From: a virus
Strand: one strand, 5' to 3'
DNA: 24,560 nt
IMG/VR virus record: IMGVR_UViG_3300035184_001019
Location: 1 to 24,560 of that record
Positions 6,188-15,174 of the stretch are shown piece by piece. The notes beneath the pieces were generated by a model. The model was not told the origin of the DNA, made no database searches, and saw only the letters and a program-made list of their open reading frames with translations. A program made the position numbers and the translations under genes. The stretch's first letter is position 1; every line of letters starts with the position of its first letter.

Positions 6188-6478
6188 ATGGAAGATTACG
6201 AAGAATTCGAAGATGATTTTAAAGATGAAATCGCTGAACTAATTAAAGATTCTGAAATGAAAGAAGAACTAGAAATAATTAAGCTTAAATTAGCTAATGA
6301 AAACTACCATGCTCTTATTTTAAAAGGGCTTGATATTGAAACAATGAACTTGATGGGAGTTGATCTAGAACCAATACATAGAACCTTGTCTGAGATGTTA
6401 AATATGTTTCAAGAGCTTGAACAATATGAAAAATGCGCAAAGGTCGTAGAATTCATCAAGGAAATTGAAAATATATAA
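6188..6478 (+). CDS. YEKC-family small acidic protein 1
   Basis: 96 residues from the ATG at 6188; a TTG at 6179 would add three residues but falls too close to the promoter element. The N-terminus is strongly acidic (MEDYEEFEDDFKDEIAEL), probably helical. The C-terminus carries FQELEQYEKCAKVVEFI, shared with the proteins at 7512 and 8055 (consensus F-x-E-x-E-x-Y-E-K-C). The motif resembles the helical UVR-type hairpin (Y-E-K-A-A) of UvrB/McsA-like proteins, a weak similarity only. First gene behind promoter copy A, so probably expressed early or strongly. Function unknown; a small adaptor or host-interaction protein is a reasonable guess. Confidence 0.7.
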   Translation: MEDYEEFEDDFKDEIAELIKDSEMKEELEIIKLKLANENYHALILKGLDIETMNLMGVDLEPIHRTLSEMLNMFQELEQYEKCAKVVEFIKEIENI

Positions 6479-6503: not shown

Positions 6504-6710
6504 ATGGAAGATTCAACTTTAAATAGAATTGCGGAAGCCCTTGAAAGAATCGCTACTTCAATGGAAAACACAGAAAGAAGAGGTATCAATATTAGCAGAA
6601 AGGCAAGAATCGAAGAGTCGAAAAAAGCAAAAGCTGTTATGATGTCTGAGGCAAAAAAGCATATAAGAGCGAAAATAACAGAAGCTAAAGGCTCTAAAAA
6701 AAATAAGTAA
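6504..6710 (+). CDS. Small lysine-rich protein of unknown function
   Basis: 68 residues from the ATG at 6504; an upstream TTG at 6465 would overlap the previous gene and is not needed. The N-terminal half is a predicted amphipathic helix (LNRIAEALERIATSME), the C-terminal half is rich in Lys, Arg and Ala, so a nucleic-acid-binding or coiled-coil role is possible. Its stop shares a base with the DnaJ-like start (TAATG), indicating coupling. No family recognised. Confidence 0.6.
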   Translation: MEDSTLNRIAEALERIATSMENTERRGINISRKARIEESKKAKAVMMSEAKKHIRAKITEAKGSKKNK

Positions 6711-7519
6711 TGGGGCATTATGAAACTCTAAACGTTTCTCCAAATGCAACAGTCGAAGAAATTAAAAAATCTTATCGAAAGCTAGCTAAACAATATCATC
6801 CAGATAAAAACAATGGAGATGATGTAAAATTTAAAAAATTAGCAGAAGCATATGAAGTTTTAGGAGATCCTAATTCTAAAAAATCTTACGACTTTAGTAA
6901 TAGAAGAGGAGATCCGCAACAAGATCGATTCGATAATGCGTGGAGAAGCGCATTTAATAATTCTGATAGTTTCTCAGATATATTCAATAATTCATTTGGT
7001 GGAGAATCAAAAGGACCTGATATTAGAGTTTCTTTAAATATAACATTTGATGAGGTATATTCTGGAACTAGAAGATATATTAATCTAGGAAACACTGGAT
7101 TTAATCTCAATATACCTAAAGGAATATTAAACGGTACTAAATTAAAAATTAAAGGAAGAGGCGCAATTCATCCAATAAATACTTCAGCGCCTAAGGGAGA
7201 TGTCATAGTCACTGTAAATGTTTTATATGATACCGAACTTATAGTGAACGGTTCGGATATCTTCGTAGATCTACAATTAGATTGGTTCGATTTATTATTA
7301 GGAGGAGAATTCGAAATAAAAACAAAAATACATTCTGTTAAAATTAAAGTTCCTCTAGGTTCTTATGATTCTAAAATGTTAAGAGTCGTTGGAAAAGGAA
7401 TGCCAATATATAATACGAATGATTACGGTAATTTAATGGTTAAGCTTAGAACTAACAGTATACAATTAAGCGAAGATCAAATAAAATACCTAAAAAAAAT
7501 TAAAAATAATAATGGATGA
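6710..7519 (+). CDS. dnaJ: DnaJ-like co-chaperone (class B, CbpA-type)
   Basis: 269 residues. An N-terminal J domain (about 1-65) contains the diagnostic HPD at 30-32 within AKQYHPDKNN, needed to stimulate Hsp70 ATPase. A linker rich in Asn, Ser, Phe and Gly (about 66-103) replaces the classical G/F region. There is no CxxCxGxG zinc-finger region. Two C-terminal beta-sandwich substrate-binding domains (about 104-260) follow, with K-G-R-G and V-G-K-G-M-P typical of this family. It probably recruits the host DnaK, since no Hsp70 gene is visible here. It sits among the YEKC genes and upstream of bS21, in an overlapping gene chain. Phage DnaJ proteins are uncommon; roles in capsid or tail assembly, replication-complex remodelling or stress control are all possible. 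Confidence 0.9.
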   Translation: MGHYETLNVSPNATVEEIKKSYRKLAKQYHPDKNNGDDVKFKKLAEAYEVLGDPNSKKSYDFSNRRGDPQQDRFDNAWRSAFNNSDSFSDIFNNSFGGESKGPDIRVSLNITFDEVYSGTRRYINLGNTGFNLNIPKGILNGTKLKIKGRGAIHPINTSAPKGDVIVTVNVLYDTELIVNGSDIFVDLQLDWFDLLLGGEFEIKTKIHSVKIKVPLGSYDSKMLRVVGKGMPIYNTNDYGNLMVKLRTNSIQLSEDQIKYLKKIKNNNG

Positions 7520-7766
7520 TCTAGAAGAATATGATGAAGGCCAAATGGGATTTATGAAAGATTTGCAAGAATCTTCTAAAGAAACCATGATGGAAATGAT
7601 ATACAACGCAGTTATTAACAAACGACACGGCGCCCTTAATCATGAGGCTTCTAATTCAACAAAAATAGAGGGACTAACTAATATTTTAAACTTTTTTAAA
7701 GAAAGAGAAGAATATGAGAAGTGTAATGAAATTAAGAAAATAATAAACGAATATGATAATAATTAA
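7512..7766 (+). CDS. YEKC-family small protein 2
   Basis: 84 residues, overlapping the end of the DnaJ-like gene by 8 bases. An acidic N-terminus (MDDLEEYDEGQ) leads to a C-terminal helix pair with FFKEREEYEKCNEIKKII, clearly related to the motif in the proteins at 6188 and 8055. The rest of the protein has diverged. The last 14 bases overlap the bS21 start, so translation of this gene probably feeds ribosomes to bS21. Function unknown. Confidence 0.72.
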   Translation: MDDLEEYDEGQMGFMKDLQESSKETMMEMIYNAVINKRHGALNHEASNSTKIEGLTNILNFFKEREEYEKCNEIKKIINEYDNN

Positions 7767-7947
7767 AGTAGATAGTAATAATATAGAAAAGGCTCTTAAA
7801 CAATTAAAATATAAAGTCAGAAGTACTAGGCAAACTCAAGAATTAAGAGATAGAAAAGAGTTTGAAAAACCATCAATAACTAAAAGAAAACAAAACATCA
7901 AAGCTAAATTCATTCAATCAATTAGAGACCAAGAAAACAAATGGTAG
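7753..7947 (+). CDS. rpsU: Ribosomal protein bS21 (phage-encoded)
   Basis: 64 residues, the usual length of Bacteroidetes bS21. The N-terminus MIIIKVDSNNIEKALKQLK matches the conserved start (I-I-x-V, N-I-E-x-A-L), followed by LRDRKEFEKPS and KRKQNIKAKFIQSIRD, the R/K-rich helix of the family. bS21 binds the 30S platform near the 3' end of 16S rRNA. In Bacteroidetes it helps mask the anti-Shine-Dalgarno, and loss of bS21 changes mRNA preference (established for Flavobacterium). A phage copy could replace the host protein and bias initiation toward phage mRNAs. The start is nested in the preceding gene and has no Shine-Dalgarno, unlike the host rpsU leader known to be autoregulated. Phage bS21 genes are known from marine and huge phages. 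Confidence 0.92.
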   Translation: MIIIKVDSNNIEKALKQLKYKVRSTRQTQELRDRKEFEKPSITKRKQNIKAKFIQSIRDQENKW

Positions 7948-8054
7948 TATAATGATATGATATTTTTTTTACTCCGGTTGTCTTAACCCGAAGCGACATC
8001 AAATATATACATTATACCAAATACGAAACACGTATTAAAAATAAGAATTTAAGA
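7948..8054 (+). promoter_or_regulatory. Non-coding gap with GC-richer core upstream of YEKC protein 3
   Basis: 107 bases between bS21 and the next gene. It holds TATAAT at 7948-7953, a T-run (about 7961-7970), a GC-richer core (about 7971-7997, starting actccggttg) unlike other gaps here, and a 6-bp inverted repeat AATACG/CGTATT at 8020-8036. The small dyad ggtt/aacc lies in the core. It may combine weak termination with a new promoter or a leader RNA structure; nothing is decisive. Confidence 0.35.
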
Positions 8055-8312
8055 ATGAATGATAATATAGGAGATGACCGAGATTCTCTTATGAGGTCTA
8101 GCTATTATATAATCACAAGAAATTTTACAAAGACCGTTAATAGATTTGTAGTTTTTCGAGATGGTTTAAACATAATCGATATTCCACATGGAGTCGGACA
8201 GAGAAGTAAATTTATAGATGTATTAATGAAATACTTTATAGAGATTGAAGAATATGAAAAGTGCGATACTCTTTCTAAGCTTAAAGAACTTGTCATTATG
8301 GCGGGTGACTAA
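8055..8312 (+). CDS. YEKC-family small protein 3
   Basis: 85 residues. The C-terminal FIEIEEYEKCDTLSKLKEL matches the motif of the proteins at 6188 and 7512. Unlike those, the N-terminal half is not strongly acidic and looks beta-rich (TVNRFVVFRDGLNIIDIP). It is preceded by a 107-base non-coding gap and followed 16 bases later by the PhoH gene. Function unknown; three diverged copies in 2 kb suggest repeated duplication and specialisation. Confidence 0.7.
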   Translation: MNDNIGDDRDSLMRSSYYIITRNFTKTVNRFVVFRDGLNIIDIPHGVGQRSKFIDVLMKYFIEIEEYEKCDTLSKLKELVIMAGD

Positions 8313-8328
8313 ATAAAAGATATAATAA

Positions 8329-9036
8329 ATGGATAAAGGTAATAGTTCAAGAATGCCAGCTGGCAAAAGAAATATTAATATTAAACCTGAAAATATAAAA
8401 GCGCAACTAAGACAAACTCAAAATAAATACGTAAACACAATATTAGAAAATGAAATAACATTTTGTCAAGGACCTGCAGGTACTTCTAAAACTTTTACAG
8501 CATGCTACACTGCTTTAAAACTATTAGCCAACAAAGAAATTTCTCAAATTGTTTTATGTAAACCAATACAAGAATCTGGTGAAAAGCTAGGATTCTTACC
8601 AGGAGATATAAAAGAAAAGACTGATCCATACATGCAGTCTTACGTATCAAACCTTAAAAAAATTATAGGAGATCAGGTAACTGAAGCTCTAGTCGAAAAC
8701 GAAATAATAGTATTCAAGCCTCTTGCTTTTATGAGAGGAGATACTTTTGATAAGTCATTAATGATACTTGACGAGGCTCAAAACGCAACATTTAAACAGT
8801 TAATGTTATTTGTTACTAGAATGGGTAAAGGGTCTAAAGTAATAGTAACTGGTGATGTTAGCCAATATGATATACCAAAAAATAATGTTGGACTTCCTGG
8901 ATTTATTAAACTAATGGACGGTGTTAAGGGAATTGGACATCACGTATTTGAAAACAAAGATATTGTTAGAGCTAAGATTCTACAAGAAGTTGTAAACAAA
9001 TACGATAAGTGGAAGATCGATAACCCGGATAAATAA
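8329..9036 (+). CDS. phoH: PhoH-like P-loop ATPase
   Basis: 235 residues. Walker A is GPAGTSKT (48-55), preceded by T-F-C-Q. Conserved PhoH stretches follow: CKPIQESGEKLGFLPGD, Walker B LMILDEAQN (144-152), and VIVTGDVSQYD with sensor-like GD-x-x-Q. The family is an RNA helicase-like or nucleotide-dependent ATPase, frequent in marine phages and in Pho regulons, whose phage role is unresolved. The N-terminus (1-30) is basic and extended. The neighbouring RNase HII and bS21 suggest an RNA-metabolism block. Confidence 0.93.
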   Translation: MDKGNSSRMPAGKRNINIKPENIKAQLRQTQNKYVNTILENEITFCQGPAGTSKTFTACYTALKLLANKEISQIVLCKPIQESGEKLGFLPGDIKEKTDPYMQSYVSNLKKIIGDQVTEALVENEIIVFKPLAFMRGDTFDKSLMILDEAQNATFKQLMLFVTRMGKGSKVIVTGDVSQYDIPKNNVGLPGFIKLMDGVKGIGHHVFENKDIVRAKILQEVVNKYDKWKIDNPDK

Positions 9037-9082: not shown

Positions 9083-9718
9083 ATGCAATCTAAAATTATT
9101 TCACTTAAAGGTAGTTTCAATAATGACTCAGATATTATTGAAGTAGGTATTGACGAAGCAGGTAGAGGAGCTCTTGCCGGTCCAGTAACAGTATCAGCAT
9201 GTATAATGCCACATGGATTTAGCCATCCTCTTATTAAAGATTCTAAACTTCTTAATGAAAAACAAAGAAAAGTTGCTAGAGAACTAGTACTCGAGAACGC
9301 ACTAGCGTATCACATAGAACATATTAATCCAACTGAAATTGAATCAACAAATATATTAAGAGCAACTCTTAGGGGTATGCATCTGTGTTTGTTGAAGTTA
9401 AAAGAGAACAACAAAGAGTTTAATTTCATATTAGTTGACGGAGATCAATTTCATGGATTTGATGGAATTCCATTCGAAACAATTATTGGTGGAGACAATA
9501 AATATACATCAATCGCTGCAGCGAGTATTCTAGCTAAAACAAGTAGAGATGCTATGATGAAAGAATTAGACGAAGAAACTTACGGATACGGTTGGAATTC
9601 TAATAAGGGCTATGGGACAAAGCAACACATTACAGCAATCAAAGAATTAGGACCTACTGAAAACCATAGAGAAAGTTTTATTTCTCATTTATTAACAGAA
9701 ACTGGAACTTTATTCTAA
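9083..9718 (+). CDS. rnhB: Ribonuclease HII
   Basis: 211 residues, close to the usual bacterial length. The signature GIDEAGRGALAGPV gives catalytic D24 and E25; LVDGDQF supplies D119 and KTSRDAMM supplies D156, completing the four-carboxylate metal site. K-D-S-K-L-L (52-57) and the G-Y-G-T-K-Q-H substrate loop are also present. It nicks RNA-DNA hybrids 5' of ribonucleotides, so it probably removes replication primers or misincorporated ribonucleotides. It shares one base with the following membrane-protein gene (TAATG). Confidence 0.94.
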   Translation: MQSKIISLKGSFNNDSDIIEVGIDEAGRGALAGPVTVSACIMPHGFSHPLIKDSKLLNEKQRKVARELVLENALAYHIEHINPTEIESTNILRATLRGMHLCLLKLKENNKEFNFILVDGDQFHGFDGIPFETIIGGDNKYTSIAAASILAKTSRDAMMKELDEETYGYGWNSNKGYGTKQHITAIKELGPTENHRESFISHLLTETGTLF

Positions 9719-10062
9719 TGAAAGGACTTTTAGCAGGCGTTTTATTATTTGCGCTAGGACAATCTATGATATGGATTCAGACAAATGGTCAATTCGTATG
9801 GCCATGGTTTAAAAAGAACCCAATAACCATTTCGATAATTGGAGGTACCGTAATCAGTTATATGTTTATAGTTGCGACTAAACTAATAGCAGAATATTAC
9901 GACGGTCAAATATGGCCGGGTAGATTTATTGGATTCACATGCGGAATCATAACCTTTTCAGCACTCACATACTATTTATTAGATGAGGGTATCACAACAA
10001 AAACCGCTATTTGTTTAATGTTAGCATGCTGTATTATAGGTATTCAAATATTTTGGAAATAA
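9718..10062 (+). CDS. Small four-helix membrane protein
   Basis: 114 residues with four hydrophobic segments at about 2-19, 36-58, 69-88 and 96-113, separated by short polar loops (one with NGQFVWPWFKKNP, one with YYDGQIWPGR). The topology recalls small DMT-like proteins, but I see no family-defining motif. It would sit in the host inner membrane; a holin or superinfection-exclusion role is conceivable, though four helices and linkage to rnhB do not prove either. It is the last gene before two hairpins. Confidence 0.7.
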   Translation: MKGLLAGVLLFALGQSMIWIQTNGQFVWPWFKKNPITISIIGGTVISYMFIVATKLIAEYYDGQIWPGRFIGFTCGIITFSALTYYLLDEGITTKTAICLMLACCIIGIQIFWK

Positions 10063-11533: not shown

Positions 11534-12457
11534 ATGGCTGCAAATTACGGATATTGTTGTATTAACCTAACACTAGAAAAAGAACGTGGAATTAAGATTG
11601 GAAGATCTATGATAAAACGTACATTTAAAGCCAAGGGTATCGAATACGCTGGTGAATTAGCAGAAGCTAACCTCACGGACATGATTGAAATTCTTAAATG
11701 GAATACACAACAAGGTATTAACTTATACCGAATGTCTTCTAATATGTTTCCATGGATGTCAGAATATGAATTGTCTGATTTACCAAACTTTAAAAAGATT
11801 AAACAGTTATTAGAAACTGCAGGTAAATTGGCAATCGACAGCGGACAGCGCATTGGATTTCATCCAGGTCAGTTTTGTGTTTTACCAAGTCCTAGTCCAC
11901 ATGTTGTAGAAAATACAATAAATGAATTAGATAAGTCAGCACAGATATTAGATCTTATGTGTCTTCCACAGGATCAGACATACTCAATGAACATACATCT
12001 TGGTGGATCTTATGGCGACAAAGAATCTGCTATGGAACGATTTGTTTTAAACTTTAAAAGATTATCTAAATCCGCTCAAAACAGAATAGTACTAGAAAAC
12101 GACGATAAACCAGCGCAGTATTCTGTTTTAGATCTATACGAAATCTATAAACAAATAGGAACACCAATCACATTCGATTACCATCATCATAGATGTTATA
12201 ACGATCCAATGCCTGAAGAAGATGCACTAAAATTAGCAGCCACTACTTGGCCTGATGGAATTAGACAGCTTTGTCATTATTCAAGTGCTAAAAAACTACA
12301 TGAAGACGAAACCGCTATTATTCGCGCACATGCTGATTATTTATATGAACGCATCGAAACATATGGGATGGACCTAGATATAGAACTCGAAGTAAAAGCA
12401 AAAGAACTCGCATTAATTAAATATCGTAAAGAATATCTAGATGCCGTTTTATCTTAG
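11534..12457 (+). CDS. uvsE: UV damage endonuclease (UvdE/UvsE)
   Basis: 307 residues with the family's TIM-barrel motifs: GYCCINLTL at the N-terminus, LYRMSSNMFPW (64-74), GFHPGQF with H110, NIHLGG with H155, VLENDDK with E188, FDYHHHR (214-220) and HYSS (248-251). These residues supply the metal cluster. The enzyme nicks DNA 5' of UV photoproducts and some other lesions, starting alternative excision repair. A phage copy would protect virion DNA of a sunlit-water phage or repair it soon after infection. It ends with TAG, 11 bases before the capsid-targeting-like gene cluster. Confidence 0.94.
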   Translation: MAANYGYCCINLTLEKERGIKIGRSMIKRTFKAKGIEYAGELAEANLTDMIEILKWNTQQGINLYRMSSNMFPWMSEYELSDLPNFKKIKQLLETAGKLAIDSGQRIGFHPGQFCVLPSPSPHVVENTINELDKSAQILDLMCLPQDQTYSMNIHLGGSYGDKESAMERFVLNFKRLSKSAQNRIVLENDDKPAQYSVLDLYEIYKQIGTPITFDYHHHRCYNDPMPEEDALKLAATTWPDGIRQLCHYSSAKKLHEDETAIIRAHADYLYERIETYGMDLDIELEVKAKELALIKYRKEYLDAVLS

Positions 12458-12468
12458 ATATATAATTA

Positions 12469-12810
12469 ATGAAACATATTAAACTATTTGAACAGTTTAT
12501 TAACGAGGCTGAAAAGGCTAAAGGAGATAGAGGACCACTTAAGGGTAAAGGTGTAGAAACTGGAATTAAGAATAAATCCAAAGAAAGCGGAGTACCTTTA
12601 CCAATTCTTAGAATTATAATGAGACGTGGAATGGACGCTTGGAATAGTGGCCACCATCCAGGAATGACACAAGAAGGATGGGGATACGCAAGAGTAAACG
12701 CATTCTTAGAAAAAGGAAAAGGAACATGGGGTGGCGCTGATTCTGATGTCGCGAAAGAGGTTAGAGACGGTGGTCATGATAAGAAACTTCCATACAAATT
12801 TGAAGACTAA
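12469..12810 (+). CDS. DUF5824-like protein with capsid-targeting-like N-terminus
   Basis: 113 residues. The first 14, MKHIKLFEQFINEA, closely resemble the T4 capsid-targeting sequence (MKTYQEFIAEA), including an I-N-E/A site that fits the (L/I)-x-E cleavage rule of the T4 prohead protease. The remainder, SGVPLPILRIIMRRGMDAWN, then H-H-P-G-M-T-Q-x-x-W-G-Y-A-R-V-N-A-F, resembles the DUF5824 domain found in phage head-associated proteins. It may therefore be packaged in the prohead and matured. Its stop overlaps the next start (TAATG). Domain call moderate, packaging inferred. Confidence 0.72.
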   Translation: MKHIKLFEQFINEAEKAKGDRGPLKGKGVETGIKNKSKESGVPLPILRIIMRRGMDAWNSGHHPGMTQEGWGYARVNAFLEKGKGTWGGADSDVAKEVRDGGHDKKLPYKFED

Positions 12811-13349
12811 TGAAATTTATTAAAACATTCGAAAATTGGAGTAATGTATCTCCAGAATTAAAGGCGCATTTAGAAGAAGAATTAGATTTGACAAATTCTC
12901 TGTTTAGATTAGGTAGCGATAAATACATTGAGCTATTTGAAGAAGTTAAACAATACTGGGACAAAGGTAATATTATTCTTAAAGGACCAAGTGGATGGAT
13001 GGCTAAAAACTTAGAAATAGGTACCGACGCTGTTTATAAACCAAGAGGCGGTAACCAAACTAAAGTTAAACTAGATACACCATCAAGAGGTGGAAAGGCT
13101 AAATTTATAGTATATCGTAATTCAGGTAAAACTGATAAGGATGGAAACATTGTTGCGAAGAAAATAGAATGGGGAGATCCTTCAACAACTGTAAAGAATG
13201 AAGATCCAAAAAGAGCAGCTAGTTTTTGGGCTCGACATGGATGCGATAAGGCAGCTAAGATGGATCCGATGAAGGCTGGATTCTGGGCATGCTATGGACC
13301 TACATTGTTCTCAAAACAATTAGGTATAAAATCCGACCAGCCATGGTAA
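12810..13349 (+). CDS. Phage protein with capsid-targeting-like N-terminus and ARHGC-type C-terminus
   Basis: 179 residues. N-terminus MKFIKTFENWS is of the same type as its neighbours. A helical segment (about 15-50) is followed by a basic Gly-rich region. The C-terminal 50 residues carry KKIEWGDPSTTVKN and ASFWARHGCDKAAK, then G-F-W-A-C-Y-G-P, a conserved phage C-terminal pattern (R-H-x-C plus W-x-C) whose domain name I cannot fix. The two cysteines might bind metal. It overlaps the following gene by 7 bases. A head-internal or structural role is inferred from the N-terminus only. Confidence 0.66.
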   Translation: MKFIKTFENWSNVSPELKAHLEEELDLTNSLFRLGSDKYIELFEEVKQYWDKGNIILKGPSGWMAKNLEIGTDAVYKPRGGNQTKVKLDTPSRGGKAKFIVYRNSGKTDKDGNIVAKKIEWGDPSTTVKNEDPKRAASFWARHGCDKAAKMDPMKAGFWACYGPTLFSKQLGIKSDQPW

Positions 13350-13693
13350 AAAAAGATTGTAAATGTGAATCTTGTAAATGTGGTAAGGAATCATTCGACG
13401 AAATGATTCAAAACATCGACGACTACACTAAACCTTTTATTGAAACTATTATATCTGAAACTGAAGTTATTAGAGAGTTTACTACAGGGCATCCTGATCA
13501 TTTATATAAATGGCATGCAGATCCCGAGGACCGGTTAATTACAGTATTAGAGGATTCTGACTGGAGATTTCAATACGATAACGAACTGCCAACACTATTA
13601 ATGGTAGGTATAGATATAAAAATACCTAAAGGAACTATCCATAGATTAATACCAGGAACAACAGATCTTAAAATAAAGATATATAAATCATGA
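13343..13693 (+). CDS. Cupin-like protein with N-terminal Cys cluster
   Basis: 116 residues from the ATG at 13343; a longer frame from 13289 would overlap the previous gene by 61 bases and add an unlikely hydrophobic extension. The N-terminus has four closely spaced cysteines (CKCESCKC, residues 6-13), a possible metal site. The body reads like a small cupin found in many phages: YKWHADPEDR, then W-R-F-Q-Y-D-N-E-L-P, and IPKGTIHRLIPG, giving two or three histidines for a metal centre. It is the only gene of the cluster lacking the capsid-targeting-like N-terminus. Enzymatic role unknown. Confidence 0.68.
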   Translation: MVKKDCKCESCKCGKESFDEMIQNIDDYTKPFIETIISETEVIREFTTGHPDHLYKWHADPEDRLITVLEDSDWRFQYDNELPTLLMVGIDIKIPKGTIHRLIPGTTDLKIKIYKS

Positions 13694-13878
13694 AACATGT
13701 TAAACTATTTGATAATTTTATAGAATCAAAGAAAAATAAAGATTCTGTAAACGACGATAAATCTGTAATTCCTAAGATTAATTACGGAGATAAAGAGGCT
13801 CATGACGATGAAGATCATATAGAATTTTTAAAAGATGTTGCGATTAAGAATGCAGTAAAAAATAGCGTAGGTTACTAA
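13690..13878 (+). CDS. Small protein with capsid-targeting-like N-terminus
   Basis: 62 residues, overlapping the cupin gene by 4 bases (ATGA). N-terminus MKHVKLFDNFIESKKNK matches the neighbouring proteins almost residue for residue; the remainder is polar and acidic, probably disordered with a short C-terminal helix. If the N-terminus is cut off, only about 48 residues remain, as in small internal head peptides. No enzyme motif. Confidence 0.62.
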   Translation: MKHVKLFDNFIESKKNKDSVNDDKSVIPKINYGDKEAHDDEDHIEFLKDVAIKNAVKNSVGY

Positions 13879-14252
13879 TGAAACTAGTAAAATTATTTGA
13901 AGAATTTATTAAAGAGGAAGAAGAGATCGAAATTGATGGACTTGACGATATTAGTGATGAAGAGGCTGACGAAGAGGATATAGATATCGATATTGAAATA
14001 GAGGACGAAGAGGGAAAATCAATTGACGAGACCAATGAAAGGGCAAGACCACCTAAAATTCTTCCAAAACAAAGAAAGGCAAACTCGGTAAAATCAAAAG
14101 TGGTAAAAGAACTACTAGGACCAGAATCTAAATTAAGGCCTGTAATTAATAAAATCTTTTTAAAGATTCAAAAGGAGATTAAGAAAGAGGCATCTGCACA
14201 AGGCGTTCCAATATCTGGAATAAACCTGGATAAATTAACAATTAAACGATAG
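13878..14252 (+). CDS. Acidic/basic bipartite protein with capsid-targeting-like N-terminus
   Basis: 124 residues; start overlaps the previous stop by one base (TAATG). MKLVKLFEEFIKEEEE includes I-K-E, which fits the (L/I)-x-E processing rule. Residues about 13-55 are almost wholly Asp, Glu and Ile; residues about 57-124 are strongly basic (K-V-V-K-E-L-L-G, KIFLKIQKEIKKEA). This charge split resembles prohead core or internal proteins, and the basic half could bind DNA. Function not recognised. Ends with TAG. Confidence 0.65.
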   Translation: MKLVKLFEEFIKEEEEIEIDGLDDISDEEADEEDIDIDIEIEDEEGKSIDETNERARPPKILPKQRKANSVKSKVVKELLGPESKLRPVINKIFLKIQKEIKKEASAQGVPISGINLDKLTIKR

Positions 14253-14253
14253 A

Positions 14254-14406
14254 ATGAAAAGAGTAAAATTATTTGAAGAGTTTACAGTAAACATGGTAAA
14301 ATGTGATAACTGTGATTGGGAATGGAAATCAGAAGACGGTGGAGATGATTTATATATTTGTCACGAATGCGGACATGATAATACACCAGTCCTAGGTGAA
14401 CAATAA
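14254..14406 (+). CDS. Tiny zinc-ribbon protein with capsid-targeting-like N-terminus
   Basis: 50 residues, one base after the previous gene. N-terminus MKRVKLFEEFTVN is the fifth of the series, but without an (L/I)-x-E site. The rest is a compact zinc ribbon: C17-D-N-C20, a hydrophilic loop, then C36-H-E-C39-G-H. Such ribbons bind nucleic acid or protein. It is very short but in frame, uses typical codons and fits tightly between neighbours, so I regard it as real. Confidence 0.7.
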   Translation: MKRVKLFEEFTVNMVKCDNCDWEWKSEDGGDDLYICHECGHDNTPVLGEQ

Positions 14407-14426
14407 AACACTCTTTAATTTAAAGA

Positions 14427-14433
14427 TATATAA
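14427..14433 (+). promoter_or_regulatory. Candidate promoter box upstream of the acidic 237-residue protein
   Basis: TATATAA preceded by aaaga, in a 54-base gap made almost entirely of A and T, 27 bases before the ATG at 14461. Since the downstream gene is bracketed by this gap and a terminator, a dedicated promoter is likely; the exact box is uncertain. Confidence 0.35.
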
Positions 14434-14460
14434 CTAAAATATAATAAAATAATATAAATC

Positions 14461-15174
14461 ATGGCAAAATTAAAAACATTCACACAGTATGTCGCAGAAA
14501 TGGACAGATCTGAAGAAATCGAAGACGACATCGTAAAAGCTGGAGAACCAGAAGGAAAAGATATCGAAGAATTAGAGGACGAAGCTGAAGAAGTTCAAGC
14601 AAACGAAGCAACTGTAGTTGTAGACGCAACCGATCCTAAATCTAAAACACTAGCAAAATTACTTAAGAAACATAAAGTTTCTATGGAAGTTATTGATCAA
14701 GATGGACCAAGTGGTTTTCCAGAAGTTGAATTAACAGGAGCTAGAAAAGATCTTGAAGCGGTATTAGCATCTGAAGACGGATGGGACGATGCTGGTTTAA
14801 ACGATTACATCGAAGAATCTAATGAAACATTTACTGTTAAAGTAAAAGCATTAAACGAAGAAGATCATGAAGAAGCTAAAGAAGAAAAATCAATTCCGGT
14901 TTCTGAAATGTTAGAAAACTGTTACGCAAACGTTCAAGAAGAAGCTGGTGTTTGGGAATCAGATGCACACGATGATCACACTATCGAAACGTATATGGTT
15001 GAAAACGCTGCACTTGTAGCGACACTTGCTGCAAACGCTCTTAAGGAAATGAAGAACGAAAGTGCAAATGAAGCATATGAAGCTGCTATTAACCAAATGG
15101 TTGAGTCATACACTAAGAAAATGAGCGAAATGAAAGAATCATCTAACGCACCTGGTGCTGAATTAGAAGATTAA
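14461..15174 (+). CDS. Acidic head-internal or scaffold-like protein (putative)
   Basis: 237 residues, strongly acidic. N-terminus MAKLKTFTQYVAEMDRSEE is a variant of the capsid-targeting-like pattern (F-T-Q-Y-V-A-E against T4 F-I-A-E). A Glu-rich N-terminal third is followed by a small alpha/beta region (VVVDATDPKSKTLAKLLKK, then V-S-M-E-V-I-D-Q-D) and a long Ala/Glu-rich helical C-terminus (about 150-230) suited to coiled coils. It has its own upstream AT gap and a strong terminator, so it seems monocistronic and well expressed. A prohead core, scaffold or packaged internal protein is the best reading; homology to a named family is not evident. Confidence 0.62.
   Translation: MAKLKTFTQYVAEMDRSEEIEDDIVKAGEPEGKDIEELEDEAEEVQANEATVVVDATDPKSKTLAKLLKKHKVSMEVIDQDGPSGFPEVELTGARKDLEAVLASEDGWDDAGLNDYIEESNETFTVKVKALNEEDHEEAKEEKSIPVSEMLENCYANVQEEAGVWESDAHDDHTIETYMVENAALVATLAANALKEMKNESANEAYEAAINQMVESYTKKMSEMKESSNAPGAELED

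Follow-up and report, generated by a model that had tools for sequence, protein, structure and literature searches.

Described bS21 systems and the locus under study

bS21 is the commonest ribosomal protein in phages, and in Bacteroidetes it is a switch that hides the anti-Shine-Dalgarno (anti-SD, ASD) sequence. Tyr54 of the Flavobacterium johnsoniae protein stacks on the anti-SD. Ribosomes of this bacterium without bS21, or without its C-terminus, initiate worse on mRNAs free of a Shine-Dalgarno (SD) sequence and better on rpsU, and autoregulated rpsU genes of Flavobacteriales carry an extended SD of less than -13 kcal/mol (McNutt 2023, PMC9976891). The sequence-only reading of the DNA studied here had quoted this biology correctly. 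It had also called the functional consequence of a phage bS21 in a Bacteroidetes host largely open, which is less so in view of two studies. A pelagiphage bS21 enters E. coli ribosomes (Mizuno 2019, PMC6375957), and for freshwater Bacteroidetes phages a bS21/ASD proposal was made and late expression was recorded in situ (Chen 2022, PMC9723584). Earlier publications already cover phage bS21, Bacteroidetes hosts, residue 54 and the idea of a takeover. Four points described below were not found in the openly available main texts covered and appear to be new: the DnaJ/EEYEKC/PhoH setting, the recurrent loss of bS21 from it, the overlap of the bS21 start with the upstream stop and the variable SD; DnaJ is not mentioned in the main texts of Chen 2022 and Mizuno 2019.

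The window, i.e. the whole stretch of 24,560 nucleotides that was analysed, carries the following features around bS21:

6188-6478, + strand: small protein with an EQYEKC motif
6710-7519, + strand: DnaJ-type J-domain co-chaperone (J domain and DnaJ C-terminal domain, without a zinc-finger match)
7512-7766, + strand: small protein of 84 aa with a C-terminal EEYEKC helix motif, homologues in many module loci
7753-7947, + strand: phage bS21, 64 aa, ATG start (Pfam, NCBIfam, PHROG and structure matches)
7963-7970, + strand: T run directly 3' of bS21, possible transcription end
8002-8009, + strand: AATATATA element between bS21 and the next gene, possible promoter
8055-8312, + strand: small protein of 85 aa with an EEYEKC motif, 66-99% identity across the module family
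8329-9036, + strand: PhoH-like ATPase (E 3.5e-64)
9083-9718, + strand: RNase HII (E 5e-34)
9718-10062, + strand: conserved hydrophobic protein, last of the module

The window and the phages of Chen 2022 (PMC9723584) have in common a Bacteroidetes-type bS21, an aromatic residue at position 54 and predicted Bacteroidetes hosts. In Chen's phages, however, the gene lies on the opposite strand inside a terminase/portal/capsid module and is expressed late, whereas in the window it is co-directional with a cluster of DnaJ, PhoH and RNase HII genes, has an EEYEKC gene on either side and overlaps the upstream one. The Chen-like opposite-strand capsid-module layout was seen in four other loci (L029, L044, L071 and L077). 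The late, capsid-linked setting is not the sole one for bS21 of Bacteroidetes phages. The bS21 of F. johnsoniae (rpsU; PDB 7JIL; McNutt 2023) belongs to the same family, has equal length and is aromatic at position 54; the window protein differs by Phe for Tyr, by the phage signature Gln27/Val22 and by having no extended SD upstream. Pelagibacter phage HTVC008M (Mizuno 2019) resembles the window as a lytic myovirus with bS21 and a heat-shock gene nearby, but has an alphaproteobacterial host, SD-using genes and a bS21 outside the Bacteroidetes-type clade. Huge phages of 630-735 kb (LR745206, LR756502) encode a Bacteroidetes-like bS21, 45-50% identical to that of the window, with a J-domain gene nearby; the 10 kb neighbourhoods examined showed no other part of the module.

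Identity, lineage and host

The open reading frame at 7753-7947 matched Pfam Ribosomal_S21 (PF01165; E 1.8e-11, 44 bits against a cut-off of 27), the NCBIfam equivalog TIGR00030 (36.1 bits against 28.95) and the PHROG annotated as ribosomal protein S21. The closest solved chain to its product was 9i5v_9 (E 8e-10), and chain 7jil_z of the F. johnsoniae ribosome was aligned over residues 2-60, nearly the full length (E 3e-9). The earlier assignment of the 64-residue protein to bS21 over its length is thereby borne out. It is the only bS21 copy in the 24,560-base virus record. A second copy of this bS21 was found on another contig (L002), 94-95% identical and in identical gene order. The dN/dS between the two, about 0.15 from only 7 substitutions, speaks for purifying selection on the window gene.

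In a tree of 129 bS21 sequences, the phage copies retrieved by similarity formed one group with a support of 99/96, in which rpsU of MED-G17, a marine Bacteroidetes, is the one cellular sequence; two huge-phage copies adjoin this group. The phage and MED-G17 group sits among Bacteroidota sequences in a tree of 64 columns with few other phyla sampled. As the alignment is this short, the broad placement alone was used. This is the outcome of the phylogeny that the sequence-only reading had proposed as a check. A recent capture of bS21 from a host is not favoured, as the phage clade is deep and its residues are phage-specific.

The window is a myovirus-like fragment. Phages of Tenacibaculum, Flavobacterium, Chryseobacterium and Prevotella gave most matches to its large structural proteins, with further ones from Sphingomonas phage PAU and unassigned metagenomic phages. 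Since most of these are Bacteroidetes phages, a Bacteroidetes host is likely. The scan of cellular genome contigs for bS21 yielded only 4 loci, so the host assignment leans mostly on the structural proteins. No bS21 match was found in the cultivated phages matched by these proteins.

Residues of the phage bS21

Phe53 of the window protein occupies the position of Tyr54 of F. johnsoniae, and the aromatic character is kept. Together with the structural protein matches, this agrees with the earlier description of the protein as bS21 of Bacteroidetes type. Among 51 distinct bS21 sequences of the module family, position 54 is Tyr in 47, Phe in 2, His in 1 and Lys in 1, i.e. aromatic or His in 50. 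The window protein has the phage signature Val22/Gln27; in F. johnsoniae numbering, Gln28 is present in 97% of the phage copies and position 23 is Val or Thr. The largest differences between phage and cellular bS21 fall in the N-terminal part, at F. johnsoniae positions 5, 10, 21, 23, 24 and 28. The phage bS21 of Chen 2022 (PMC9723584) also has divergent N-terminal positions, and positions 21, 23 and 28 are common to both sets. The predicted ASD-contacting end of phage bS21 is thus conserved while its N-terminal half diverges.

A separate phage bS21 clade (L009, L014, L015, L017, L022 and relatives) carries Arg, which is not aromatic, at the Tyr54 position, whereas all phage copies in Chen 2022 are stated to be aromatic there. 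In this clade the anti-SD sequestration may have been lost, or the hosts may differ.

Shine-Dalgarno leaders

The 41 gene starts of the window showed a median anti-SD pairing of -0.6 kcal/mol, compared with -0.5 in shuffled sequences, in agreement with the earlier statement that SD-free mRNAs occur throughout the window. The same absence of SDs was seen in related phages, whether or not they carry bS21, and the identical procedure found strong SDs in the region of pelagiphage HTVC008M. The sequence-only reading had further proposed that a phage bS21 could re-program 30S subunits towards SD-free mRNAs. This part did not hold, as host mRNAs are SD-free by default and the bS21-less sister phages are equally SD-free; SD-free leaders were rejected as a phage/host discriminator on the same two observations. 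A bias towards SD-free mRNAs alone cannot favour the phage because the host mRNAs are SD-free too.

These observations bear on the specialised-ribosome idea proposed in Chen 2022 (PMC9723584), with a similar takeover suggested in Mizuno 2019 (PMC6375957), in which the diverged N-terminal helix would make the 30S subunit prefer phage over host mRNAs. The location of the strongest phage/cell differences in the N-terminal part, as in Chen 2022, is consistent with it, and so is a residue signature common to phage clades with different gene contexts. However, no SD or leader-pairing feature separates the phage genes from the SD-free host genes, and the sister phages without bS21 have similar leaders, which leaves this explanation unlikely.

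The leader of the window bS21 itself pairs with -2.5 kcal/mol, far from the value below -13 of autoregulated rpsU, and 47 of the 51 distinct module bS21 leaders are weaker than -4.5 kcal/mol. Only one, that of L235 (G287 contig), has an extended SD below -13 kcal/mol: a perfect AAGGAGGT with -13.6 kcal/mol, the strongest SD of the 131 open reading frames on the 119 kb contig. This bS21 thus carries a perfect host-like SD (AAAAAGGAGGT) in a phage that is otherwise almost SD-free. Leaders of -9 kcal/mol or lower were found for 2/51 bS21 genes versus 0/183 other module genes, so that SD enrichment at phage bS21 is only suggestive.

Host rpsU leaders differ by lineage, with values of -13 to -21 kcal/mol in several of the sampled Bacteroidota. 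Of the cellular rpsU genes retrieved, those closest to the phage copies (in MED-G17 and two Flavobacteriales MAGs) have no SD. This weakens any general claim that phage bS21 genes have lost an autoregulatory SD that their host counterparts carry, as the closest cellular genes lack it as well. For the same reason, the host of the window phage may have no autoregulatory rpsU loop to silence. The 16S tail of MED-G17 has an intact CCUCC core; a pattern search did not find that of G014 and G015.

Gene cluster and expression signals

All genes of the cluster are co-directional, in the order DnaJ, small protein, bS21, small protein, PhoH, RNase HII and hydrophobic protein. A scan with the 8055-8312 protein gave 80 viral loci with a nearly always identical order wherever the contig reaches.

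In the window, the stop of the 7512-7766 gene overlaps the bS21 start by 14 nt, and a start/stop overlap of bS21 with the upstream gene, typically of 7 nt, is present in most loci. This overlap suggests translational coupling of bS21 to the upstream small protein. Downstream of bS21, T runs in an AT-rich stretch were found in 30/53 distinct intergenic sequences versus 12% in shuffles, and AATATATA in 52/53 versus 5%; within the window alone there was no excess of AATATATA. The T run followed by AATATATA may represent a transcription end and the promoter of the next unit.

The C-terminal helix motif E-[EQ]-Y-E-K-C is common to the three small proteins at 6188-6478, 7512-7766 and 8055-8312, around DnaJ and bS21. 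The C-terminus of the 8055-8312 protein is predicted to form a helix-hairpin, and its weak resemblance to UVR (UvrB C-terminal; Foldseek E 4.7) is taken as a lead only. A fold search of the EEYEKC small protein in PDB and BFVD gave no match at E <= 0.001. Gram-positive chromosomes have a dnaJ...rpsU...phoH-ybeY-era neighbourhood, and the order dnaJ, rpsU, phoH at 6710-9036 of the window resembles it.

This setting raises the alternative that DnaJ, the two EEYEKC proteins and PhoH aid bS21 exchange or 16S 3' end maturation as a platform-remodelling module, with bS21 as its cargo. Consistent with this are the gene order fixed in about 70 viral loci and the J-domain genes near bS21 in two 630-640 kb phages. 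In bacteria, the PhoH-like YbeZ acts together with YbeY as the platform and the 16S 3' domain are formed (PMC10582724, PMC5101352), and phage-encoded factors aiding bS21 exchange were the subject of speculation in McNutt 2023 (PMC9976891); both the YbeZ kinship and this speculation are treated as leads. On the other hand, nine loci keep the cluster although bS21 is gone, phages often encode PhoH and DnaJ, which may have no role at the ribosome, and the small proteins gave no significant match in fold searches. Such a module is considered unlikely. The broader version is clearly improbable: a 30S-platform takeover by a bS21 swap via DnaJ, UVR-like EEYEKC adaptors and a YbeZ-like PhoH, in which the occluded anti-SD would shut off the SD-dependent host rpsU. 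If it were true, the rpsU shut-off would make the takeover self-reinforcing, and phage lineages without bS21, or with an SD, would mark hosts with a different rpsU control.

Loss of bS21 from the cluster

In the nine loci mentioned, bS21 is missing from an otherwise intact cluster. No bS21 was found elsewhere on the contig in the seven of these that were searched (7/7), all of them fragments. Further apparent absences in L239, L247 and L252 were due to contig ends and were excluded from the losses. A tree built from three module proteins puts the nine loci at three separate positions, each within phages that carry bS21, and the simplest reading is that bS21 was lost at least three times. One of them, L216, keeps MLIINAKYKQPRDL-stop in place of bS21, which reads as an internally deleted gene with its first and last codons joined; in its sister L210 the bS21 gene is whole. 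Because the clusters stay intact after repeated loss, phage bS21 is useful but dispensable, and its cluster neighbours are independent of it. A phage family with bS21 present, lost, SD-less or with a perfect SD in one gene order offers a natural comparison set for the question of what purpose phage bS21 serves.

Proposed role in the host ribosome

The best reading, with a probability of about 0.55, is that of a Bacteroidetes-infecting phage with a functional, long-resident viral bS21 that replenishes or replaces the host bS21 in the 30S subunit. Phage bS21 would be made together with the DnaJ-type co-chaperone and the small helical protein, probably by translational coupling. We infer that it enters the host 30S platform, replacing or adding to host bS21, where its C-terminal helix would hold the 3' tail of the 16S rRNA in a sequestered state, Phe53 standing in for Tyr54. 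The 30S subunit would then stay competent for SD-free initiation, used by host and phage mRNAs, while host rpsU expression fails. Where host rpsU has an extended autoregulatory SD, phage bS21 filling the 30S subunit would in addition shut down that gene. The phage copy, SD-free and coupled, would escape this autoregulatory loop because its own leader has no SD. Against this reading stands the dispensability of bS21, which at least three times has disappeared from a cluster that is otherwise complete.

Phage bS21 might also poison host translation, since E. coli ribosomes with the pelagiphage bS21 were nearly inactive, at about 5% activity (Mizuno 2019, PMC6375957). Phage bS21 would in that case poison the 30S subunit for host initiation at a chosen stage. 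However, that experiment crossed phyla, and the phage genes use the identical ribosomes with SD-free leaders like those of the host, so that a shut-off of this kind is very improbable. Keeping the 30S subunit replete and anti-SD-sequestered during infection is the simplest and more likely reading of phage bS21.

Other genes of the window

Otherwise different proteins encoded at 12469-15174 (and at 13159-16189 of L002) have a common N-terminal motif, MK-x-[IV]-K-[LT]-F-[ED]-x-[FWY], found in the genes starting at 12469, 12810, 13690, 13878 and 14254 and in a looser form at 14461; it is absent from the window bS21. Internal head proteins of T4 carry a short capsid-targeting leader, and by likeness to it the motif proteins may be packaged and injected. 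A tail fibre protein with collagen-like Gly-X-Y repeats, truncated by the window start, is encoded at 3-1109. The gene at 11534-12457 encodes a UvdE-type UV endonuclease, and other phages (L003, L006 and L011) also have a UvdE-type gene, some 4 kb downstream of their bS21.
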